Assembly: GCA_025462725.1 (NCBI GenBank)
Contig: JAOAPE010000011.1
Coordinates: 248,001 to 312,000, forward strand
Origin: Terriglobales bacterium
Lineage (GTDB): Bacteria > Acidobacteriota > Terriglobia > Terriglobales > Acidobacteriaceae
Direction: 5' to 3'
Length of the DNA stretch: 64,000 nt
Shown: one piece after another, positions 30,040 through 43,347 of the stretch
How positions within the stretch are numbered: the first letter of the stretch is position 1
How the letters are laid out: each line of letters starts with the position of its first letter
Program-made: the position numbers and the translations under genes
The notes under the pieces: generated by a model
Told to the model about the DNA's origin: nothing
The model's database searches: none
What the model saw: the letters and a program-made list of their open reading frames with translations, nothing else

Positions 30040-30951
30040 GTGACGACTCCGATTGTTTCTAAGTCACTACCCAAGGACCAGGCCGCGGCGGTAGAAAGCA
30101 TTCTGCTGGTGCAAACGCGCGTTCCAGAAATCACTTCCCTACACCGCGCACTGCGAGACACGGGGTTTGAGGTTGTCGTGGCATCCACGGTCAGGGAAGC
30201 CCTGGGCCTCATCGTTTCAGACAAATTTTCTGCCTTGATCTGTAACCTTCACGCCCCAGCGCCAGGTGACGGTTTCACGTTAATAAATGCCATGCGGCAC
30301 GCGCAACCTCATGCTGTCACCATGATCTTGACGGACTATCCAGCATTAAAGGAATCCTTGGTCGCATTGCTTCCAATCGCGGACGAACTCGTGGTCACGC
30401 CCGTTCCCCTAACCGAAATCATTGCCCTGTTAAAAGACAGGCTGAAAACGCCGCGCCCCAAACGATTGAAAGTCCTCCAACCCGTCGCCACCATCTTGGA
30501 GCGCAATGCCAAGCAGACAATTTCGGATTGGCTGGTCCGCGTGAACGCGGTCAAGGACTTGGTAGATCAGCCTCTCAGCGATGAAGGGCGCACTGGGCAC
30601 CTGCCCAGGCTCTTGCAGGAGGTCATCAAGCGACTGCGCACGCCGCGCCTTGATGAAGGCGACGCTGCCACTTCCTTAGCAGCCATCAGCCATGGAAAGG
30701 TGCGCCGCGAGCAGGGCTATACCGCTGCCATGCTTGTGACGGAATCGCGCATCCTTCAAGTCTGTATTTTCAAGATGCTGCGCAACAATCTCGGTTCCTT
30801 GGACTGGACCATGGTTCTTACAGACGTGATGACCATTGCCGATGAAGTGGATTCGCAACTCGCACAAACAACGGCAAGCTTTTCACGGGAAAAGCTGAAG
30901 AGGAAAAAGCGGACCGCCAAACCAGAAAGAGATTTGCTGACCGCTTGTTAG
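30040..30951 (+). CDS. Pseudo-receiver fused to an RsbR N-terminal-type domain
   Basis: A 303-residue protein. Residues about 20-130 have the receiver fold but lack its chemistry: the acidic pair is replaced (ILLVQTRVP), the acceptor Asp is Asn (LICNLHAP), and the Lys is absent (VVTPVPL). Residues about 145-285 match the RsbRD N-terminal helical domain (ERNAKQTISDWLVRV at its start; GYTAAMLVTESRILQVCIF near its end). There is no STAS domain. It stands just before the stressosome genes, so it may be a sensory or regulatory partner of the RsbR protein. A broken copy of its C-terminal part is at 37564-37769. Confidence 0.75.
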   Translation: MTTPIVSKSLPKDQAAAVESILLVQTRVPEITSLHRALRDTGFEVVVASTVREALGLIVSDKFSALICNLHAPAPGDGFTLINAMRHAQPHAVTMILTDYPALKESLVALLPIADELVVTPVPLTEIIALLKDRLKTPRPKRLKVLQPVATILERNAKQTISDWLVRVNAVKDLVDQPLSDEGRTGHLPRLLQEVIKRLRTPRLDEGDAATSLAAISHGKVRREQGYTAAMLVTESRILQVCIFKMLRNNLGSLDWTMVLTDVMTIADEVDSQLAQTTASFSREKLKRKKRTAKPERDLLTAC

Positions 30952-31108: not shown

Positions 31109-31990
31109 GTGAGCAAATTAGCCGAGATCTTTGAAAAGTATCAGGCCGATATTATTACCGATTGGATTAAAGAGATGTCTGCTGCCAATCGGCGAAAAGA
31201 CTTGATGTCTGAATCCGAACTGAAGCTGCAAACAAATGAGTTGCTACATGCCATAACTGATGCTTCCAAGAACGGCAATAGCTCTGACATCAATGCTCCG
31301 CATTGGGCACCAGTCCGCGAAATGATCACTTCCATTTCGAGTTCTCGAGCCAAGCAGGGCTTCACTCCCACTGAGACTGCTAGTTTCGTATTCTCATTGA
31401 AGCAGCCTATATCCAACCGGATCCGCAAAGAATTCGGAAAAGATCCGGACGCGCTCTTCGAGGAGCTGTCTGCCTCCAACTTCTTGATCGACAATCTTGG
31501 CCTGTACTCGGCTGATGCTTACGTCAAGACGCGAGAGCAAATCATTGTCCGTCAGCAAGAGGAGATGCTGGAGCTCTCCACTCCGGTCGTGAAGTTGTGG
31601 GACGGTATTCTGGCGCTTCCCTTGATCGGAACGCTGGATAGTGCGCGCACCCAAGTAGTCATGGAATCTTTGCTGCGTACCATTGTCGAGACGAATTCAC
31701 AGATTGCCATCATTGACATTACAGGTGTGCCAACTGTGGACACCAAAGTCGCTCAGCATCTGCTGAAAACTGTTACCGCCGCCCGTTTAATGGGGGCTGA
31801 ATGTATCATCAGCGGCATCCGCCCGCAGATTGCCCAGACCATTGTCCATTTGGGTATCAATTTGACCGACATCATCACGAAATCGAAGATGTCCGATGCA
31901 TTTGCCTTGGCGCTGCAACGCACGGGCAAGACTGTCGTCAAACGGATGCAGCCACTTATCCCAAGCACGAACAGCGGGGCGGTCAGTTAG
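31109..31990 (+). CDS. rsbR: RsbR-type stressosome scaffold protein
   Basis: A 293-residue protein with an N-terminal helical sensory domain (about 1-150, RsbRD-type) and a C-terminal STAS domain (about 160-275). The STAS part is very like Bacillus RsbR: LALPLIGTLDSARTQVV, IIDITGVPTVDTKVAQHLL and GIRPQIAQTIVHLGI. Threonines at the DITGVPTVDT site fit the phosphorylation site used by RsbT. GTG start with AAGGAG 7 bases upstream; the stop overlaps the next GTG (TAGTG). Role: builds the stressosome with RsbS and holds RsbT until a stress signal arrives. Confidence 0.9.
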   Translation: MSKLAEIFEKYQADIITDWIKEMSAANRRKDLMSESELKLQTNELLHAITDASKNGNSSDINAPHWAPVREMITSISSSRAKQGFTPTETASFVFSLKQPISNRIRKEFGKDPDALFEELSASNFLIDNLGLYSADAYVKTREQIIVRQQEEMLELSTPVVKLWDGILALPLIGTLDSARTQVVMESLLRTIVETNSQIAIIDITGVPTVDTKVAQHLLKTVTAARLMGAECIISGIRPQIAQTIVHLGINLTDIITKSKMSDAFALALQRTGKTVVKRMQPLIPSTNSGAVS

Positions 31991-32385
31991 TGGAACGCAT
32001 ACCTATCCTTCGCATGGGCGTGTTCCTCATCGTCACTATTCAAGTGGACATGCATGATCAGCTTGCTATGAAGTTGCAGGACGATCTGACTTCGGCCATC
32101 GCTAAGTCCGAGTCCCGGGGGGTATTGATCGACATCTCTTCCCTTGAGATCGTTGATTCTTTTATCGGACGCATGCTAGCCAACATTGCTGCCATGTCAC
32201 GTGTGCTGGATGCCCACACCGTACTTGTCGGCATGCAACCGGCCGTCGCCATCACCCTAGTGGAATTAGGCATGTCTCTTCCCGGAGTGCGTACCGCTCT
32301 CAATGTGGAATCCGGAATGGCCCTTTTACATTCACTGAGCGATCACCCAAAGGAGTCAGAAGAAGATGCCTCCTCGGACACTTGA
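31990..32385 (+). CDS. rsbS: RsbS-type STAS antagonist
   Basis: A 131-residue single STAS domain: IPILRMGVFLIVTIQVDMHD, then VLIDISSLEIVDSFIGRMLA, where the Ser in DISSLE/VDSFI corresponds to the RsbS phospho-Ser region, and VGMQPAVAITLVELGM. It overlaps rsbR by one base and rsbT by 20. Role by family: core stressosome subunit that sequesters RsbT and is phosphorylated by it on activation. Confidence 0.9.
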   Translation: MERIPILRMGVFLIVTIQVDMHDQLAMKLQDDLTSAIAKSESRGVLIDISSLEIVDSFIGRMLANIAAMSRVLDAHTVLVGMQPAVAITLVELGMSLPGVRTALNVESGMALLHSLSDHPKESEEDASSDT

Positions 32386-32770
32386 GACGCTGACCCTCGC
32401 GTCCGTGTCTGACATTGTTATAGCTAGGCAACGAGCAAGACACTGGGCCATTGAGATGAAGTTTTCACTTGTGGAGCAGACCAAAATCGTTACTGCGGCC
32501 AGTGAATTGGCACGCAATACCGTGGAGCATGGTGGTGGAGGGACGATGGTCATATCGACCGATGGAAACAGAATTCGCCAGGCGTTGAAGTTGACTTTCG
32601 AAGACAAAGGACTGGGGATCGCCGACGTGGAACAGGCCATGCGAGATGGATTCACCACTTCTGGTGGGATGGGATTGGGACTCGGCGGTAGCAAGCGACT
32701 AATGAACCAGTTTGAGATTGACAGCAGACTAGGGCAGGGGACGCGGGTCACAGTAACCAGATGGAAATAA
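32366..32770 (+). CDS. rsbT: RsbT-type serine/threonine switch kinase
   Basis: A 134-residue GHKL ATPase: ASELARNTVEHGGGG (N-box), EDKGLGI (G1), GMGLGLGGSKRLMNQF (G2). In Bacillus RsbT phosphorylates RsbR/RsbS and, once released, activates the phosphatase RsbU. No rsbU/rsbV/rsbW/sigB genes follow here; two further proteins with the same ATPase module at their N-termini do. It overlaps rsbS by 20 bases and the next gene by 10. Confidence 0.9.
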   Translation: MPPRTLETLTLASVSDIVIARQRARHWAIEMKFSLVEQTKIVTAASELARNTVEHGGGGTMVISTDGNRIRQALKLTFEDKGLGIADVEQAMRDGFTTSGGMGLGLGGSKRLMNQFEIDSRLGQGTRVTVTRWK

Positions 32771-33801
32771 CGTTGTTTGCTTACCCCACATTTCGCACTG
32801 TCCCCGTAGACGATTTGAGCCAGCCCGGGGAGGCTCGCAGAATAGCGTCTGCCATGGCGGGAAATCTATCCTTCAATGAAGTACAACGCGGCCAAGTGGA
32901 GATTATCGTCACGGAACTGGCGATGAATATCGTCATTCACGGAGGCGGCGGTCACGTGATCCTTTCAGGACAGAGGTTCAAGAACAAAAGCCGAATGGAC
33001 ATCATCGCCGTTGACAGAGGGCATGGTATTGCCAATGTGGGTGCCGCACTCGAAGACGGTTTTTCTACTGCCGGCACTGCCGGAACAGGATTGGGTGCCG
33101 TTTCGCGATTAGCGAGTCTCTTTGAAATATTTACTCAGCCTGATAATGGCACCGTTGTTTTGGCACGGGTGAGCGACCGGCCTATAGAGCAATGGCCCTT
33201 GAGCGTCGGTGGGGTCTCCATCCCCCTCGCGAGCGAACGGGCTTGTGGAGATGCCTTCGCCACTGCACAGTCCTCTTCTCGGTCTGTCTTTATGGTCGCG
33301 GACGGTCTAGGGCACGGCCCGGAAGCTGCTGAGGCCGCTACCGCCTCACTAGAGGCATTCGAGAAATACCGCGCTGACTCGCCGGCGGAAATTATCGAGC
33401 AGTTGCATGGGGCGATGAAATCCACCAGAGGCGCTGCGGTTGCTGTCGCGGACATACGACATGACCTCGGCTTAGTCACTTATTGTGGAATAGGTAACAT
33501 CGCGGGAGTCGTACTCATGCCGGAAGATGGCTTATCGCGCAACATGATTTCTCATAACGGCATTGTAGGCCACCAAATGAACCATGTCGCGGAATTCACC
33601 TATCCGTGGCCTCCCAAAGCCAAGCTGATCATGCACTCTGACGGCCTCAATAACCACTGGAACCTAGAATCCTATCCCGGCCTCTTGAACAAAGACCCCG
33701 CGCTTATTGCGGCCGTCTTGTACCGTGACCAGAGTCGAAAAGGTGATGATGCCACCGTATTGGTGGCAGGACCCCGCAACGGAGAGGTGAAGGCAGCATG
33801 A
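32761..33801 (+). CDS. RsbT/RsbW-like ATPase fused to RsbX-type PP2C phosphatase
   Basis: A 346-residue fusion. Residues about 20-135 are a GHKL domain related to the preceding kinase (TELAMNIVIHGGGG, AVDRGHGI, GTGLGAVSRLASLF). Residues about 145-335 are a PP2C-like phosphatase of the RsbX class (SVFMVADGLGHGPEAAEAA, TYCGIGNI, LIMHSDGL, KGDDATVLV). RsbX resets stressosomes by removing phosphates from RsbR/RsbS, so this protein may combine kinase-like binding with reset. The gene overlaps both neighbours. Confidence 0.85.
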   Translation: MEITLFAYPTFRTVPVDDLSQPGEARRIASAMAGNLSFNEVQRGQVEIIVTELAMNIVIHGGGGHVILSGQRFKNKSRMDIIAVDRGHGIANVGAALEDGFSTAGTAGTGLGAVSRLASLFEIFTQPDNGTVVLARVSDRPIEQWPLSVGGVSIPLASERACGDAFATAQSSSRSVFMVADGLGHGPEAAEAATASLEAFEKYRADSPAEIIEQLHGAMKSTRGAAVAVADIRHDLGLVTYCGIGNIAGVVLMPEDGLSRNMISHNGIVGHQMNHVAEFTYPWPPKAKLIMHSDGLNNHWNLESYPGLLNKDPALIAAVLYRDQSRKGDDATVLVAGPRNGEVKAA

Positions 33802-35945
33802 TGCTGGAGACAATCTTCACCGTCGATCTTCAGTTCGAGAACGATGTCGTACAAGCCCGCCAACGCGCTCGTGAGATCGCGGCATCCTTGGGCTTCGATC
33901 ATCAAGAGCAGATCCGCATCGCCACGGCAACTTCAGAGATCGCACGAAACGCTTTTCGCTACGCCACCCGTGGGCGCGTGATCTTTTCTGTTTCGTTAGG
34001 CACTCCCCAGTCGCTACAGGTTGAAGTTGAAGACAAAGGCGGCGGGATCCTTGCGCTAGAACAGATACTGGCAGGTAGATATAAATCTCAATCGGGCATG
34101 GGTATGGGCATACTCGGCACTAAACGCTTAATGGATAAGTTTGCGATCCATTCCAGTGCAACGGGGACTGCAGTACTGTTTGCCAAGCACTTACCCAAGG
34201 GTGCGATCTTTCTTACACCGTCCGCAGTCGGCAAGGCTCGCCAAGACGTGACGATGCGGAGCCCTGAAAGCCCGTACGACGAGATTCAGCAGCAAAACGC
34301 CGAGTTGATGAAGACGCTCTCCGAGCTTCGCACCCGTCAGGAAGAACTCGCTCTTCTCAATCGCGAACTGGAAGACACGAATCGCGGAGTAGTGGCGCTT
34401 TATGCTGAATTGGAGGACCGGGCTGACTATTTGCGACGCACGGCAGAACTCAAGTCCGGGTATTTGTCGAACATGTCGCACGAGTTCCGCACACCTCTTA
34501 ACTCGATCATTTCGCTCACCCGTATGCTGGGCGAGTCGCCCAGCAATCCTTTAGGCCCCGAGCAGCAAATTGAAGTTGTGCACATCCAAAATTCGGCGAA
34601 AGACTTACTAGAGCTTGTAAATGATCTTTTGGATATGGCTAAGATCGAGGCGGGCAAGTTACAGGTAAAACCGAAGGACTTTGAGATCACTCATCTGTTT
34701 GGCGCTCTTCGAGGAATGTTGAAGCCGCTGTTGTCAGAAGCCTCTATGGTCCTGATTTTCGAGGAACCAGAAGGGATGGCGTCCCTACACACTGACGAAG
34801 GGAAACTTTCGCAGATATTAAGAAACCTGACATCCAACGCCATTAAATTCACGCGGAAAGGTGAGATTCGCATTAGTGCTGTCCTCGAAGGCGAAAAGGA
34901 CATCTGTTTCACCGTGGCGGACACGGGAATCGGCATCGCTCATTCTGATCTAGAAACCATTTTCAATGAATTCGGTCAAATAGATAACGACCTTCAGACC
35001 AGGTTCCGGGGGACGGGGCTCGGATTACCCCTGTCACAGAACCTAGCGAGTCTTCTTGGAGGATCCATTTCGGTCAAGAGCCAGCCCGGTGTAGGGTCCG
35101 TCTTCTCGGTCAAGATACTAAGGAACTATGTGAATGAGGGAGGAGCGGCCCAGGAATTCATGCCCGTTCCCGAGATTGACCGCAGCCGCACAACCGTGTT
35201 GGTACTCGAAGACAATCACGAGACGCAATTTCTATATAGGTCGTTCCTTGAGAAATCGTCGTTTCAGATGATTGGAGCGATCAGCGTCGCCGAAGCTCGG
35301 AGATGCCTGGAAAAGCACACTCCTGCCCTCATCGTTTGTGATCTGTTCATCGACTCAAGGATTGAAACGGAGTTTATCCGGGAACTCAGAGAACGACCAG
35401 ACACTCGCGACATCCCGATACTCGCAATCAGTACCGCTTCAGAGGAGCAACTTTGCCTGGCAGCGGGAGCCACAGCTTTTCGATTGAAGCCTGTGCAATC
35501 TGAGGCATTTCTGGACCTTTTGCATCGACTCACGAAGCGTGAACGTACAGGCAATATCCTTCTGATCGATGATGAGGAAGCCTCACGATACATTTTGCGC
35601 CAACATTTGCCTCAAGAAGCTTATGTAATACGCGAGGCGCGAACCGGGCGTGAAGGCCTCACTATGGCTAAGTCCGAAAAGCCGGACCTGATCTTTCTAG
35701 ACCTAAACATGCCAGACCTAGACGGCTACAGCGTCTTATCTGCTTTAAAACAAGACCCCGATACCCGTCGCACACCCGTCGTCATACATACCTCGCAAAC
35801 CATTTCTGATGTTCTCCGCAGCAAATTGTCAGAGGTCTTCGAGATTCTTCCAAAAAGCGCTCTCGCCGACGAAAACGCTGAGGTGAGAGTGGCAGCACTG
35901 TTGGCACGGGCAGGGATTACAACGTCAAAGGGGGTGCATGTCTAA
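33798..35945 (+). CDS. Hybrid histidine kinase with N-terminal RsbT-like module
   Basis: A 715-residue protein. Order: RsbT-like GHKL domain (about 5-135; TSEIARNAFRYATRG, EDKGGGI, GMGMGILGTKRLMDKF), coiled coil (about 160-215), DHp with MSHEFRTPLNSIISL, HATPase (NLTSNAIKF, ADTGIGI, GTGLGLPLSQNLA), receiver 1 (acceptor Asp in LIVCDLFID) and receiver 2 (acceptor in LIFLDLNMPDLDG). The start overlaps the previous stop. It appears to carry the stressosome output straight into a phosphorelay, in place of the sigma-B partner switch of Bacillus. Confidence 0.88.
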   Translation: MMLETIFTVDLQFENDVVQARQRAREIAASLGFDHQEQIRIATATSEIARNAFRYATRGRVIFSVSLGTPQSLQVEVEDKGGGILALEQILAGRYKSQSGMGMGILGTKRLMDKFAIHSSATGTAVLFAKHLPKGAIFLTPSAVGKARQDVTMRSPESPYDEIQQQNAELMKTLSELRTRQEELALLNRELEDTNRGVVALYAELEDRADYLRRTAELKSGYLSNMSHEFRTPLNSIISLTRMLGESPSNPLGPEQQIEVVHIQNSAKDLLELVNDLLDMAKIEAGKLQVKPKDFEITHLFGALRGMLKPLLSEASMVLIFEEPEGMASLHTDEGKLSQILRNLTSNAIKFTRKGEIRISAVLEGEKDICFTVADTGIGIAHSDLETIFNEFGQIDNDLQTRFRGTGLGLPLSQNLASLLGGSISVKSQPGVGSVFSVKILRNYVNEGGAAQEFMPVPEIDRSRTTVLVLEDNHETQFLYRSFLEKSSFQMIGAISVAEARRCLEKHTPALIVCDLFIDSRIETEFIRELRERPDTRDIPILAISTASEEQLCLAAGATAFRLKPVQSEAFLDLLHRLTKRERTGNILLIDDEEASRYILRQHLPQEAYVIREARTGREGLTMAKSEKPDLIFLDLNMPDLDGYSVLSALKQDPDTRRTPVVIHTSQTISDVLRSKLSEVFEILPKSALADENAEVRVAALLARAGITTSKGVHV

Positions 35946-37425
35946 GCAGAAACAGATCAGAATCCTCCATGTAGATGATCGGGCGGAAAATCGCTATATA
36001 GTTTCCAAAATCCTTCGTAACGCCGGTTTCCAAGTGATCGAAGGCAAAACGGGGCGAGAGGCTTTGCAATTGGCGGCAGAGCAACCGGATCTGATCATCC
36101 TTGATGTGCGCTTACCTGACATCATCGGATACGAGGTCGCTAAACGCATCAAATCGAATCCGGCCACAAGCTCCATCCCTATTATTCAGCTTTCTGCGAG
36201 TTTCATCACCGATGAAAGCAAGGTACAAGCCCTGGACAGTGGTGCCGATCAATTTTTGACCCAGCCCGTGGAAGGACCGGTCTTGATCGCTTCGGTAAAA
36301 GCGCTTTTACGGATGCGGAACGCGGAAACGATTTCGCGGCTTTCTGCGCATCAATGGCAAACGACCTTTGACGCGCTCTCGGAGGGCATTGGACTGTTAG
36401 ACAATGACCAAAATATATTGCGCTGCAACCGCCGCATGAGCGAACTCTTGGCATTGCCTTACCCTGAAATCGAAGGACGGAATTGTACCGAAATCCTCAA
36501 TTCTGCTTTTGGTATCTCACGCGACAGGGTAAAAGCCTTTTCTTTACGTCAGGTATTTGAGTCGAGAGTAGGCAGGCAGTGGTTTCGCACTACTATTGAT
36601 CCTGTTGTGGACTACGCTGGCGATCCTGTCGGCAGCATCCTTGTGATTGCCGAAATTACAGACCAAAAACTGGCGGAAGAAGCCTTGATGGTCACAGAAA
36701 AACTTGCTGCCACTGGCCGCTTGGCCCATAGTATCGCTCACGAGATAAATAATCCGCTTAGTTCCATTACGAACGTGATTTTCTTGCTGAAACACTCGCT
36801 TAAAAGCAACCCTGAAGCCCAAGAGTACCTTGAGATTGCTGACGCCGAGCTACTACGCGTAAGTCTTATCACCAAACAAACTCTTTCATTTCATCGTGAC
36901 AGCTCACACCCCGTAAAGGTCTCACTCTCAGAAATTGTTGACAGCGCCTTGTCAATTTACAGCCTTCAACTCAAGCAGAAACAGATCGTCGTGGATAAGA
37001 GGTTCGAGGCGAAGGGCTTTGTTCATGCCTTTCCTGGGCAGCTCAGGCAAGTATTCTCTAATATGCTCGCCAATGCACTGGACGCTTCAATTGCAAAGAG
37101 CAAGTTCACCATTCATGTTTACGATTCTCATTCCTGGCGCGGCACGGGGAGTAAGGGAGTCAGGGTAGTTTTTTCTGATACAGGCAAGGGCATTTCCGCC
37201 AGCGATAAAACCCATCTTTGTGAAGCATTCTTTACCACCAAGGAACAAAAGGGCTCAGGTCTTGGCCTGTGGCTAAGCATGGCAATAATCAATCAACATG
37301 GAGGCGGGATAAGTGTCCGCAGCAGAGTAACGTCTCCGAGCGGTACGTGTTTCTCATTATTCTTTCCGACAGCGTTTGCCTTCGAGGAGAACCTACCAAT
37401 TGACGTTGGCTCCCAGTCGCCTTGA
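35938..37425 (+). CDS. Receiver-PAS-histidine kinase
   Basis: A 495-residue kinase: N-terminal receiver (HVDDRAENRY; acceptor Asp in LIILDVRLPDIIG), PAS (about 140-245), DHp with LAHSIAHEINNPLSSITNV, HATPase (NMLANALDAS, SDTGKGI, GSGLGLWLSMAI). It overlaps the hybrid kinase gene by 8 bases and ends the operon. The receiver could be phosphorylated by the upstream hybrid kinase, making it the next step of the relay. Confidence 0.88.
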   Translation: MSKQKQIRILHVDDRAENRYIVSKILRNAGFQVIEGKTGREALQLAAEQPDLIILDVRLPDIIGYEVAKRIKSNPATSSIPIIQLSASFITDESKVQALDSGADQFLTQPVEGPVLIASVKALLRMRNAETISRLSAHQWQTTFDALSEGIGLLDNDQNILRCNRRMSELLALPYPEIEGRNCTEILNSAFGISRDRVKAFSLRQVFESRVGRQWFRTTIDPVVDYAGDPVGSILVIAEITDQKLAEEALMVTEKLAATGRLAHSIAHEINNPLSSITNVIFLLKHSLKSNPEAQEYLEIADAELLRVSLITKQTLSFHRDSSHPVKVSLSEIVDSALSIYSLQLKQKQIVVDKRFEAKGFVHAFPGQLRQVFSNMLANALDASIAKSKFTIHVYDSHSWRGTGSKGVRVVFSDTGKGISASDKTHLCEAFFTTKEQKGSGLGLWLSMAIINQHGGGISVRSRVTSPSGTCFSLFFPTAFAFEENLPIDVGSQSP

Positions 37426-39233: not shown

Positions 39234-40613
39234 TCAGTTCTTGACTTCGGCGGAGTCGATCTCGAATTCTTTGATCTTGCTGTAAAGGGTTGTTCGAGAA
39301 ATGCCCAGTATCTTGGCGGCCGCGGTCACTTCTCCTTTGCAACTTTGCAGAATCTTTGTAATGTGCAACTGCTCAATGCAAGAGAGGCTTGAGTCCAATA
39401 ACGCTGCTTCATCTGAATGCGTCTTAACGAATTGAAAATCAATATCTTTGGGGTCCAATTGATCATGGTCAGTGAAAAGTACGGCGCGCTCCAGAGTGTT
39501 CCGCAACTCACGGATGTTCCCCGGCCATGGATATGATTTCAGTGAAGCCATAGCATCGCTTGAGAGGGTCAGATTCTTCCGTGACACATCAGAGGAAATC
39601 CGACGAAGCAATTGTTCCGCGATCATCGGAATGTCTTCCACTCGCTCGCGCAAAGAAGGAACACGGATTGGAATCGTGCTGATGCGAAAAAACAAGTCTT
39701 GTCTAAAAGTGCCCTTTCTTGTCATGTCAGCCAAATCGCGATGGCTGGCAGCTATCAAGCGAATATCCACTTTGCGATCCTTTACTTCCCCTAACCTTCT
39801 GAACCGTTTTTCTTCGAGCACTTTAAGCAGCTTCGGTTGAATGGCGGAATCAACGTCCCCGATCTCGTCTAGAAACACGGTACCTCTGTTCGCGACTTCC
39901 AGAAGTCCTTGTTTTGCAGTCACCGCGCCAGTGAAAGCGCCTTTTTCGTGGCCGAAAAGTTCACTTTCAAACAATTCTCTGGTCAATCCTCCACAATTCA
40001 AATCTACAAACGGCTCTGCGGCCCTAGAACTCTGAACATGGATGTGGTTTGCCAGTACTCCCTTTCCGCTGCCTGTCTCCCCTTGAAGCAGTACCGGACT
40101 CTCCGTGCGCACGATCTTTTCTACCTGATTCCGCAACAACTTGATCGCGGAACTTGTGCCCAAGAAAGGGTCGGGTCTTGTAGATTCCATTCGAGTGTCG
40201 CTGAGCAACTGTTTTCGACGAAGACGCGAACCGTCCAACGTCCTTTCGATGATCACCAGTAGAGCATCGAGACGCACAGGTTTCGTTAGAAACTGTTCGG
40301 CTCCAGCCTTGATAGCTCCAACAGCCAATTCGATAGATCCGAACCCAGTAAGCAAAATACATGGAACGGATGGACCGAGCGCCTTGAGTTTAGGCAACAA
40401 CTCCAGTGCGTTTCCGTCTGGCAACGAATAATCGAGAATTACTAGATCAGGATGGAACGACTCAAATGCCGTTATCGCACTCTGGCAAGTGTCGGCTTCC
40501 ATCACTTCATAGTTCCGAGATTTAAGATAATCTCGAACCGTGTGACGAATAACTTCATCATCGACCAGTAAGACCTTGTGACCAGACATTTTGATATTTT
40601 CCAAATCAGCCAC
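39234..40613 (-). CDS. NtrC-class sigma-54 response regulator (GAFTGA)
   Basis: A 459-residue activator: receiver (acidic pair LVDDEV, acceptor Asp LVILDYSLPDG, Lys FLTKPVR), AAA+ domain (Walker A GETGSGKG, GAFTGA loop intact, Walker B VFLDEIGD, NIRELRNTLER) and Fis HTH (AAAKILGISRTTLYSKIKEF). The GTG at 40613 has GGAG 7 bases upstream; a longer frame to 40751 would overlap the kinase gene and is rejected, and ATG 40589 is possible. It is the last gene of a four-gene minus-strand operon of sensors, which probably control it. Confidence 0.9.
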   Translation of the reverse strand: MADLENIKMSGHKVLLVDDEVIRHTVRDYLKSRNYEVMEADTCQSAITAFESFHPDLVILDYSLPDGNALELLPKLKALGPSVPCILLTGFGSIELAVGAIKAGAEQFLTKPVRLDALLVIIERTLDGSRLRRKQLLSDTRMESTRPDPFLGTSSAIKLLRNQVEKIVRTESPVLLQGETGSGKGVLANHIHVQSSRAAEPFVDLNCGGLTRELFESELFGHEKGAFTGAVTAKQGLLEVANRGTVFLDEIGDVDSAIQPKLLKVLEEKRFRRLGEVKDRKVDIRLIAASHRDLADMTRKGTFRQDLFFRISTIPIRVPSLRERVEDIPMIAEQLLRRISSDVSRKNLTLSSDAMASLKSYPWPGNIRELRNTLERAVLFTDHDQLDPKDIDFQFVKTHSDEAALLDSSLSCIEQLHITKILQSCKGEVTAAAKILGISRTTLYSKIKEFEIDSAEVKN

Positions 40614-40638
40614 CCTATTCTCCGAAGAAAACGTTCTA

Positions 40639-43347
40639 CTACTTGCCGTCCAGCACCTGTCTGACCTTTCGTGCCAATGCTGTTGGGCTGAACGGCTTTT
40701 GCACGAATGCGATTCCTTCGGCGAGGTCACCTTGACGGTTGACTGAATCACCTGTGTAGCCCGATATGAACAATAATTTCACTGACGGGAGCACTGACTT
40801 TATTTTGCGAGCAAGTTCTGTGCCGCTCATCTCAGGCATGATTACATCACTGATCACAAGGTGAATAGGTTCCTTGTGGCGGCTCGCAACTTCAAGCGCC
40901 ACCCTTCCATTTGAGGCTTCTAGCACCGTGTAACCATGATCCCTTAGCATTTCCGCTACGACCTCCCGGAGAGCATCCTGGTCTTCCACAAACAACAAAG
41001 TTTCTGAGCCCCAAGAAGGGGCAGTCTGTCTTACTAGTTTGGGAAGCTCTGTTTTGTGACGCGGGAAATAGACTCCAAACGTAGTTCCTTTACCCGGTTC
41101 ACTATTAACCCAAATATGTCCATTACTCTGCTTGACGATCCCATAAACCATTGCTAGTCCTAACCCAGTCCCTTTTCCTGCAGCCTTCGTGGTAAAAAAT
41201 GGTTCGAATATTCTTTCCCTGACTTTCTCCGTCATGCCGTCCCCGGTATCAGTCACTGATAAGAGGACGTAGTCTTGGGGAGTGGGTGAAAGTTCATTCG
41301 TCCCACGCAATTCCGTCTTTGCGACGTTTGCAGTTTCGATAATGAGCTTGCCTCCTCTGGGCATCGCGTCCCGCGAGTTTATTGCGAGATTAAGCAGGAC
41401 CTGCTGTAACTGTCCCGCATCAGCATTGACGGTCCACAAGTCTGTCTCAAGTTTCGTGACGACTTGCACTTCTTCGCCTAGGGTGCGGCCTAACAATTTG
41501 ACCGTCTCAACAACCAAACTATTCAATGACAAGAGAGTGAGCTCAACCTCTTGCTTTCGGCTGAACGCCAGGAGTTGATTTGCGAGCGATGCGCCGCGAT
41601 CCGCGGCTTGCATTATCGAATTTGCGCGGCTGCGTAGTGACTCATCTTGTAACTTGTCAGCAAGGAGTTCAGCTTGTCCCATGATCACGCCAAGCAGATT
41701 GTTGAAGTCATGGGAGACTCCCCCGGCCAGCTGACCTATTGCTTCCAGCTTTTGCGTTTCTTGCTGTTGTTCCTGAATTCGCTTCTGATCAGTCACATCT
41801 TTGGCCAGACAGATGATCGCCTGTCGTCCGGCTAAATCGACTCTATGGACCAAGATCTCCATATCGATCAATTCGCCAGACTTAGCTTTGTGTTTCCATA
41901 TACCAGCCTCCCTCTTATAAATCGGCAAACTGCTTCTAATCGCAATTTCCTCGAGCAGTTTAGGAGCTTCCTCTTCGGGGCGAATGTCCAGAATCGTCAT
42001 CGTCGACAGTTCTTCCTGCGAATAGCCATAGCGACGGATCGCGGCCCCATTCACGTCCAGGAACATCAGGGTTTCGTAGTCATAGACATACATTGGGAGC
42101 GGGTTCTCGTCGAACAAGATACGATAGCGCTGATCGGAAGACCGAAGGGCTTCCTCAGATTGGCGCAGCTTCTCCCCTGCTTCGCGTTGGTCTGTAATGT
42201 CGCGAGTGATCTTAAGTGCGTAGGCTTCGCCGCCGAATGTAATCAATTCGGCAGAAAGTAGGGCAAGGCGAATCTCGCCTGCCTTCGTCCGATAGTTCCA
42301 ATCGACGTCCTTCACTCGCTCCTCGACCCTAAATTTTTCCATCAGCTCACGCCGCTGTTCAGGTTTCTGCCACATTCCGAGTTCTTCGGTGGTGTGCCCG
42401 ATAATCTCGTTGCGACTGTAGCCCATCAGTCGGAGATAGGCCTCATTTACGTCCACAATGCGGCCTGATTTAACTTCGGATATTGAGAGCGCATCCGGAC
42501 TCAAGCGGAAGGCTTTCGCAAATCCCTCTTCGGCAACATGGAGGTGACGCTCCGCTTTTCTTGTTGAGGTTTGATCGACGATGAACCCGATGCAATTGCT
42601 TTCAGAATCGTCGATTCGGGCGATGGAAATTGAAACGGGAACATGCGTACCATCTTTGCGGATGTACTCAGTCTGCAAAGACTCTGAAACGCCGGTTGCG
42701 CGCACCTGCTTAGCAGCCAACTTGTGCATGTGCTGGAATTCAGGAGGAGAAAGTTGTGGCCACTTGAGGAGCCCCGACGCGAGGTCCTGTCGCGTGTAGC
42801 CGAGGGTCGAAAGGAGAGTTCCATTGGCTTCGACAATGGTGCCGTTAAATTGGCCAACTGCTATGCCCACCAGGTTGGAGTCGATCAACCTCCTGAACCG
42901 GGCTTCACTAGAGCGAAGGGCAGTGGCGGCTTCGACCTGCTCGCGTTTCCTTGCGAATTCTTCGAGTGCCCTCGGTACCGCCACCTCGAGGCGGGTCAAA
43001 GCACCCTTCAGAACGTAGTCGGTAGCTCCCCGCCTAATGTACTCAACAGCGTCTACATCGCCGACAGTCCCTGAGACAATGATGAAAGGGATCGATTTGC
43101 CGCTGGCCTGCAAAATCTCCAGTGCTTCGAGTCCATTCCACATGGACATATTGAAGTCGGCGAAGATGATTTCATAATCCTTCTCGAGCAGGCGCGCTTC
43201 GTACTCAGCGCGAGTGGAAAGCACATCTGCGGTGAGCACATAACCCACCTTCCTCAATTCGTAGATCAAAAGTTCGGAATCTGCAGGGTTGTCCTCCAGG
43301 ACCAATGCACGTAACGGCCTTCGCGAGATCTTGGCTGCAGGTATCAT
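40639..43347 (-). CDS. Multi-PAS hybrid histidine kinase
   Basis: A 902-residue cytoplasmic sensor: N-terminal receiver (acceptor Asp in IIFADFNMSMWNG), three PAS domains (about 150-265, 280-390 and 405-520), DHp (LAGGVSHDFNNLLGVIMG), HATPase (NLAINSRDAM, TDTGDGM, GTGLGLAMVYGI) and C-terminal receiver (acceptor in LVISDVIMPEMSG). No TM segments. The start overlaps the preceding response regulator's stop (ATGA). The SHDFNNLL DHp type with a terminal receiver is a common partner of NtrC-class regulators such as the next gene. Confidence 0.9.
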   Translation of the reverse strand: MIPAAKISRRPLRALVLEDNPADSELLIYELRKVGYVLTADVLSTRAEYEARLLEKDYEIIFADFNMSMWNGLEALEILQASGKSIPFIIVSGTVGDVDAVEYIRRGATDYVLKGALTRLEVAVPRALEEFARKREQVEAATALRSSEARFRRLIDSNLVGIAVGQFNGTIVEANGTLLSTLGYTRQDLASGLLKWPQLSPPEFQHMHKLAAKQVRATGVSESLQTEYIRKDGTHVPVSISIARIDDSESNCIGFIVDQTSTRKAERHLHVAEEGFAKAFRLSPDALSISEVKSGRIVDVNEAYLRLMGYSRNEIIGHTTEELGMWQKPEQRRELMEKFRVEERVKDVDWNYRTKAGEIRLALLSAELITFGGEAYALKITRDITDQREAGEKLRQSEEALRSSDQRYRILFDENPLPMYVYDYETLMFLDVNGAAIRRYGYSQEELSTMTILDIRPEEEAPKLLEEIAIRSSLPIYKREAGIWKHKAKSGELIDMEILVHRVDLAGRQAIICLAKDVTDQKRIQEQQQETQKLEAIGQLAGGVSHDFNNLLGVIMGQAELLADKLQDESLRSRANSIMQAADRGASLANQLLAFSRKQEVELTLLSLNSLVVETVKLLGRTLGEEVQVVTKLETDLWTVNADAGQLQQVLLNLAINSRDAMPRGGKLIIETANVAKTELRGTNELSPTPQDYVLLSVTDTGDGMTEKVRERIFEPFFTTKAAGKGTGLGLAMVYGIVKQSNGHIWVNSEPGKGTTFGVYFPRHKTELPKLVRQTAPSWGSETLLFVEDQDALREVVAEMLRDHGYTVLEASNGRVALEVASRHKEPIHLVISDVIMPEMSGTELARKIKSVLPSVKLLFISGYTGDSVNRQGDLAEGIAFVQKPFSPTALARKVRQVLDGK

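Follow-up and report, generated by a model that had tools for sequence, protein, structure and literature searches.

An RsbT-Like Module Fused to a Histidine Kinase in a Conserved Stressosome Gene Cassette

Results

Six Overlapping Genes Encode Stressosome Proteins and Two Kinases

The stretch of DNA analyzed here (the window) consists of 64,000 nucleotides of contig JAOAPE010000011.1 from a Terriglobales bacterium of the Acidobacteriaceae, and our subject is a set of six genes on its plus strand that overlap end to end from position 31109 to position 37425. In order, these genes encode RsbR, RsbS, a free RsbT (t1), an RsbT-RsbX fusion (t2-X), a fusion of RsbT to a hybrid histidine kinase (t3-HK), and a receiver-PAS kinase (K). 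We refer to the set as the cassette; its features are listed below.

31109-31990, plus strand: RsbR, with an RsbRD_N sensor domain (Pfam, E 8.5e-28) and a STAS domain (E 2.6e-14); aligned to the solved Listeria RsbR
31990-32385, plus strand: RsbS, a single STAS domain with an inferred GTG start; matches solved RsbS (E 1.8e-28)
32366-32770, plus strand: t1, a free RsbT-like GHKL kinase (Pfam; own clade)
32761-33801, plus strand: t2-X, an RsbT-like module (about residues 1-138) and an RsbX-type PP2C phosphatase (about residues 146-346) (Pfam, PDB match, AlphaFold2 and Foldseek)
33798-34217, plus strand: t3, the RsbT-like N-terminal module of the hybrid kinase (about residues 1-140) (Pfam, clade, Foldseek)
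34218-34442, plus strand: linker of t3-HK, with ELEDTNRGVVALYAEL from residue 190 (alignments, AlphaFold2)
34443-35945, plus strand: HisKA (His228), HATPase_c, and two receivers (Asp515 and Asp635) of t3-HK (Pfam; positions from the translation)
35938-37425, plus strand: K, a receiver-PAS-histidine kinase (Pfam), with receiver Asp56 kept and Gln at residue 109

Successive genes overlap by 1, 20, 10, 4, and 8 bases, counted from the inferred start of rsbS; as judged from the sequence, this gene most likely begins with the GTG at 31990 rather than at 31801, the start of the listed open reading frame (31801-32385; Pfam STAS, E 6e-9). An earlier note on this DNA had described overlapping rsbR, rsbS, rsbT, and RsbX-like genes running into a hybrid kinase and a receiver-PAS kinase, and both the coordinates and the Pfam matches bear this out. 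The fused phosphatase matches HATPase_c_2 (E 5.6e-9) and SpoIIE (E 1.4e-13), and t3-HK (33798-35945) matches HATPase_c_2 at residues 16-129 (E 2.8e-15), followed by HisKA, HATPase_c, and two receivers. With a HisKA His, an HATPase_c domain, and receivers bearing Asp, the latter protein is a hybrid histidine kinase. The cassette products do not include a final output, such as a DNA-binding regulator.

The first three genes encode an RsbRST module. Thr212 and Thr244 of RsbR align with Thr209 and Thr241 of Listeria RsbR (sequence of the solved structure), and both are present in all 11 loci inspected among related genomes. Likewise, Ser57 of RsbS aligns with Listeria Ser56 and is invariant in 21 of 21 aligned loci. 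The three Listeria residues are reported phosphosites (PMC9237128). RsbR thus has a sensor domain and a STAS domain with both Thr residues, RsbS has its Ser, and the GHKL motifs of t1 are intact (88/88). By analogy, RsbR and RsbS would assemble into a STAS core. The X half of t2-X matches the solved RsbX 3w40 (E 8.4e-16) and the phosphatase 3zt9 (E 1.8e-12); it is an RsbX-type PP2C domain, to which the RsbT-like module is an addition.

Three RsbT-Like Modules Form Separate Clades

The earlier note had also counted an RsbT-like ATPase three times in a row, alone, fused to the phosphatase, and at the N-terminus of the kinase, and this is what we find. The succession is beyond chance, since each module falls into its own clade across loci, and a chance similarity of three GHKL domains can be rejected on that ground. 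In a FastTree phylogeny of 285 modules (288 before removal of segments of 110 residues or fewer), t1 (88/88, support 0.999), t2 (89/89, 1.0), and t3 (93/93, 0.973) formed exclusive clades, with 14 plain RsbT proteins and Listeria RsbT lying apart from all three. The clades were recovered in a larger tree of 323 modules (t1, 97/97; t2, 99/99; t3, 109/109), from which segments of 105 residues or fewer had been removed and in which the free RsbT of locus L185 and both of L194 were not labelled t1. A mixture-model tree (75 rows, few columns) supported t3 at 98/99, t2 at 100/95, and t1 at 88/99; in it, t3 modules fused to GGDEF and orphan t3 modules fell within t3, and the modules of three loci that lack t3 (L142-L144) were sisters of t1 and t2. 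As to the order of branching, FastTree joined t1 and t3 at 0.646, whereas the mixture-model tree, which was built on few columns and whose bootstrap had yet to converge, set t3 apart. Mean identity to Listeria RsbT is 41% for t1, 37% for t3, and 28% for t2. Finally, L194 (2433-3891) holds a tandem pair of RsbT genes followed by an RsbX in which no RsbT module was detected. The second RsbT stood beside t2 in the mixture-model tree (98/73); by distance its nearest rows are plain RsbT. The arrangement may represent a stage that preceded the fusion of T to X.

We compared the modules at functional residues, using B. subtilis RsbT numbers transferred through Listeria RsbT (alignment column minus two), B. 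subtilis RsbT itself being outside the alignment. R19 is kept in 87/88 t1, 89/89 t2, and 93/93 t3 modules, and R23 in 88/88 t1 and 91/93 t3 modules, its place in t2 being taken mostly by Leu, Ala, Ile, Val, or Met. Glu45, the proposed base (PMC9237128), is kept in 88/88, 89/89, and 92/93, respectively, and D92 in 87/88 t1 and 89/89 t2 modules. In B. subtilis RsbT, R19, R23, and N24 are implicated in binding RsbU, and D92 contacts the RsbU linker (PMC12143880). The motif patterns are present in 89-90 of 90 t2 and in 91-93 of 94 t3 modules. We therefore reject the possibility that t2 and t3 are generally decayed copies, though single damaged or missing t3 modules exist (L040 and L141).

A Continuous Helix and Exchangeable Outputs

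An AlphaFold2 model of t3, the linker, and HisKA (50 sequences; predicted local distance difference test score [pLDDT], 87.7; predicted template modeling score [pTM], 0.63) placed the GHKL domain up to residue 131 and a single helix at residues 159-246, running from the linker into HisKA with its His228. Alignments of 22 and of 50 sequences show the linker stretch ELEDTNRGVVALYAEL almost unchanged throughout. Foldseek searches with the t3 model returned SpoIIAB and RsbW entries at the top, mostly complexes with STAS partners; a phmmer search of t3 against PDB sequences gave weak matches, the best with E 0.29. For the model of t2-X (42 sequences; pLDDT, 91.1; pTM, 0.91), 3zt9 and RsbX 3w40 headed the matches, with SpoIIAB further down.

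The domain behind t3 varies, although t3 is recognizable in each case. It carries a fused GGDEF domain in L145 (E 1.2e-43) and L146 (E 1.3e-43), which come from two genomes of a single genus; L147, from another genome of this genus, has t3 on a kinase, and in L185 the fusion partner is a HisKA_2/HWE kinase. These natural variants swap the output while t3 stays, which argues that t3 is an adaptor.

Proteins at the K position were compared for 29 loci (28 chosen from the 74 found, plus K itself): 29 have a receiver, 28 have HATPase_c, and one has GGDEF. The gene at this position in D. psychrotolerans is annotated as a diguanylate cyclase. The receiver Asp is kept in 29/29, and residue 109, a position at which Lys is usual, is Q in 12, E in 9, H in 6, D in 1, and A in 1. 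Thus Asp56 and Ser86 are kept, the switch Lys is replaced in all 29 aligned proteins, and the K receiver is, by its residues, atypical.

The Cassette Recurs across Phyla

Among 100 relatives, the source genome included, t3 plus linker was found in 11; R, S, t1, t2-X, and t3-HK occurred together in all 11, with K next in 10 (absent in L036). A scan of a species-genome collection with t3 plus linker yielded at least 594 stretches, of which at least 567 were confirmed relatives; the best 80 were kept, and the counts that follow therefore describe close relatives. All six genes stood together, on one strand within 6.5 kb though not necessarily in strict order, in 69 of the best 80 loci, which come from five phyla. 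We accordingly reject the idea that the feature is peculiar to the source genome. The record titles of the 80 name Acidobacteriota, Cyanobacteria, Rokuibacteriota, Pseudomonadota genera, Planctomycetota, and Binatia. Six of the 11 incomplete loci are cut by record ends (L077, L090, L092, L100, L118, and L135). In the others, the receiver-kinase gene precedes rsbR instead of following t3-HK (L114), K does not adjoin t3 (L133), R-S-T is divergent and about 4 kb away (L121), or R, S, and t1 are not in the stretch (L120 and L123). RsbS is present in the genomes of L090, L092, and L121. The cassette is also found on plasmids: MP1 of Deinococcus radiodurans R1 carries all six genes (DR_RS15570-DR_RS15595), and a Sphingomonas plasmid carries the cassette without K behind t3-HK. 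A contig scan of genomes with the fused phosphatase as query gave no confirmed relative.

To what extent is t3 linked to stressosome genes? In a sample of 250 genomes of the class, t3 plus linker occurred in 16, and in 16/16 a cassette-type RsbS (at least 198 bits) lay about 2 kb away; the domains behind t3 were inspected in seven of these (G000, G016, G035, G074, G193, G201, and G220). Cassette-type RsbS was present in 17 of the 250, the 17th (G161, L141) having a kinase without a recognizable t3. In the Nostoc phylum 6/6 t3 proteins were near t1 (in 6 of 146 genomes) and in Pseudomonadota 10/11 (in 10 of 398 genomes). In the Pseudoduganella family, 35 t3 proteins occurred in 27 of 97 genomes, with 26 near t1, 7 away from it, and 2 at contig starts. 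Nearness was counted by eye from tables; the t3 counts are lower bounds, at most 12 (class), 20 (Nostoc phylum), 7 (Pseudomonadota), and 31 (Pseudoduganella family) candidates having been scored per genome, and the last three samples include a center genome chosen for having the cassette.

All seven t3 proteins that are away from t1 occur in genomes that also hold a t1-linked t3; cassette RsbR and RsbS were seen in the DNA of four (G756, G901, G926, and G935), and in G870, G912, and G931 only t1 was seen beside t3. In L178 (2521-5018) and L180 (3743-6240), which resemble near-copies of each other, an extra RsbR (in L178, RsbRD_N with E 2.1e-11 and STAS with E 2.5e-13 by Pfam) divergently adjoins the away-t3 kinase; RsbS and RsbT are not in the fetched stretch of either.

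The SigB Pathway

The earlier note had stated that RsbU, RsbV, RsbW, and sigma-B are missing. At the locus this holds, as none was found among the nine proteins scanned between 28441 and 37425, with RsbV having been searched for there only. In the source genome (4.33 Mb, 91 contigs) a profile search for RsbU_N gave no match at E<=1 (the same search was above cut-off in 1 of 14 control genomes), and the best SigBFG match scored 131.3 bits against a cut-off of 234.35; SigB or RsbU_N elsewhere in the genome is thus ruled out at these cut-offs. By Pfam, t3-HK lacks RsbU_N and so is not an RsbU_N-coupled effector. The claim is less secure for RsbW. The genome has 13 HATPase_c_2 matches, three of them at the cassette, and the strongest such protein (90.7 bits), which is encoded outside the cassette, could be RsbW-like. 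Promoter and terminator scans returned sites no more numerous than in shuffled sequences.

Neighboring Genes and a Distant Gene Pair

The gene directly upstream of the cassette (30040-30951) encodes a weak receiver (E 2.4e-6, below cut-off) with Asn at the expected phospho-Asp (by eye) and a weak RsbRD_N-like C-terminus (E 9.7e-4, below cut-off); a relative of it was found upstream of the cassette in L035. Its product might couple two-component signaling to the sensor domain of RsbR. Downstream, at 39234-43347 on the minus strand, are a sigma-54-type response regulator and a PAS hybrid kinase (by eye), for which we found no link to the cassette. Elsewhere in the genome (L054, 6540-8967 of G000:C20), a receiver-HATPase_c_2 protein is encoded near a separate HATPase_c_2 protein, possibly another partner switch.

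Discussion

We favor the view that the genes constitute a conserved stressosome-phosphorelay cassette in which t3 probably docks the kinase on the RsbR/RsbS core, with the signal passing in cis. RsbR would sense stress, whereupon t1, as the switch kinase, would phosphorylate RsbS and RsbR, while t2 would bring the phosphatase RsbX to the core for reset. As a copy of RsbT, t3 would bind the STAS core much as RsbT does in other systems and so keep the histidine kinase in place there. Phosphorylation of RsbS and RsbR by t1 (perhaps also by t2 or t3) would alter or break the docking of t3, the change would travel along the continuous t3-HisKA helix to switch the kinase, and phosphate would then go to the receivers of t3-HK and to K. 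The order of the genes, their domains and conservation, the clades, the retained residues, and the exchange of outputs are observed; we infer core assembly, the binding of t2 and t3 to STAS domains, the direction of the switch, and the phosphotransfers. Direct handover is best supported because the gene set recurs across phyla, t3 is RsbT-like at positions for partner binding and catalysis, the outputs vary, and genomes with an away-t3 keep a t1-linked t3. The likeness of t3 in fold to SpoIIAB and RsbW, kinases that bind STAS proteins, also speaks for docking. The earlier note had suggested that the stressosome hands its signal directly to a kinase, and on these grounds its suggestion is strengthened in part.

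Several observations weigh against this view. Two plain R-S-T-X loci (L046 and L047) carry a kinase behind X without t3. In 89/93 t3 modules Gly replaces Asp92, the residue in contact with the linker of RsbU in B. subtilis; such a loss might be expected of a module with a linker of its own. The reports on R19 and R23 concern the binding of RsbU, and a role for them in binding STAS domains is our extension. The kinase of L141 has no recognizable t3 and the t3 of L040 has no ATP-lid glycines, and an intact t3 is therefore not always needed. In the mixture-model tree the free RsbT of L185 falls outside t1, as a long branch close to the stem of t2. For five of the seven away-t3 proteins, stressosome genes are not in the fetched stretch. 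Lastly, t2-X and t3-HK occur in the genomes of L120 and L123, yet a search at 1e-12 found no RsbS there; as both genomes are metagenome-assembled, incompleteness may be the cause.

Could free t1 act in trans instead, leaving the core, binding t3 or the linker of t3-HK, and switching the kinase as RsbT does RsbU, with t3 serving as its receptor? We consider this unlikely, although it would account for the retention by t1 of the RsbU-contact residues R19, R23, and D92 despite the lack of a detected RsbU_N in the genome, it has a precedent in B. subtilis, where RsbT is reported to activate RsbU by ordering the RsbU linker (PMC12143880), and it would leave kinases whose t3 is absent or damaged (L141 and L040) reachable through the linker. 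However, t3 keeps R19 and R23, two residues that would be superfluous in a simple receptor for t1, and it is a GHKL module, not an RsbU_N domain, and its nearest folds are STAS-binding kinases. A still less probable alternative holds that t2 and t3 are additional Ser/Thr kinases for RsbS, RsbR, or other STAS proteins, that they set the thresholds of the core, and that the attached kinase mainly serves another signal. The GHKL motifs and Glu45, kept in nearly all copies of t1, t2, and t3, agree with this, but it explains neither why outputs (HisKA, HisKA_2/HWE, and GGDEF) are exchanged beside a constant t3 nor why the helical linker is conserved where the output is HisKA. That the kinases merely adjoin stressosome genes and operate apart from RsbT appears very improbable: V. 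vulnificus RsbT and the downstream kinase VvD1 are reported to have given no positive interaction (PMC9237108), but the unit is kept in 69 of the best 80 loci, t3 is one clade, and seven away-t3 proteins occur in genomes with a t1-linked t3.

The favored view of docking in cis may be part of something broader, for which we judge the chances to be about even: RsbT would be a general plug-in adaptor whose old tripling gave a free kinase, a phosphatase tether, and an effector tether, so that one stressosome surface would directly carry the reset enzyme together with one or more exchangeable effectors (histidine kinases, a diguanylate cyclase), and these would include t3-kinases encoded at a distance and paired with additional RsbR sensors.

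How does the cassette compare with known systems? The earlier note had stressed that the stressosome is wired to a two-component relay instead of to sigma-B. The gene content agrees, but this is not new in itself, as RsbRST modules whose output is a two-component system, c-di-GMP, or a phosphatase have been described (PMC9237108), as have kinases and cyclases carrying RsbU_N (PMC12143880). What is unusual is that RsbT itself is fused to an effector and to a phosphatase. The rsbRSTX-D1-D2 genes of Vibrio vulnificus, like the cassette, encode RsbR, RsbS, RsbT, and RsbX, then a sensor kinase and a further signaling gene product, without a SigB cascade; in the accounts available, however, the RsbR senses through a globin domain, RsbX is described as a phosphatase of one domain, and an RsbT-like module on the kinase goes unmentioned (PMC9237108, PMC10014275), whereas the cassette has RsbRD_N on RsbR and an RsbT-like module on both RsbX and the kinase. 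B. subtilis RsbU, Moorella MtG (GGDEF), and NreB-type kinases in RST operons resemble t3-HK in having an N-terminal stressosome-coupling domain, a helical linker, and exchangeable outputs (phosphatase, GGDEF, and kinase), but RsbU_N effectors carry an RsbT-binding domain, whereas the cassette effector carries RsbT itself (PMC12143880). The anti-sigma kinases SpoIIAB and RsbW, which bind STAS proteins, share fold and GHKL motifs with the modules, a likeness that rests on fold and motifs, RsbW being outside the trees (the Listeria fragment was too short); the cassette lacks a sigma factor gene. Closer to hand, plain R-S-T-X loci of related genomes (L041-L051) also keep RsbR, RsbS, RsbT, and RsbX together, but no RsbT module was found on X, t3 is absent, and the RsbT groups apart from t1. 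The R-S-T-(T)X loci L142-L144 share t1 and t2-X with the cassette (RsbR was not recognized in L143), but t3 was not found in them, and they possibly represent an earlier stage or a loss of t3. In the open-access literature searched we found no account of a fusion between RsbT and either a kinase or RsbX; likely relevant reviews lie outside it, and we claim no priority.

The cassette bears on how the stressosome signal travels onward where RsbU and SigB are lacking. With its own RsbT, the effector makes the contact directly testable with defined domains and residues, and nature has supplied a swap series for one adaptor: a HisKA hybrid kinase, a HisKA_2/HWE kinase, and GGDEF. If our interpretation is correct, then the coupling of stressosome to effector can be reversed, with RsbT being carried by the effector in place of RsbU_N.

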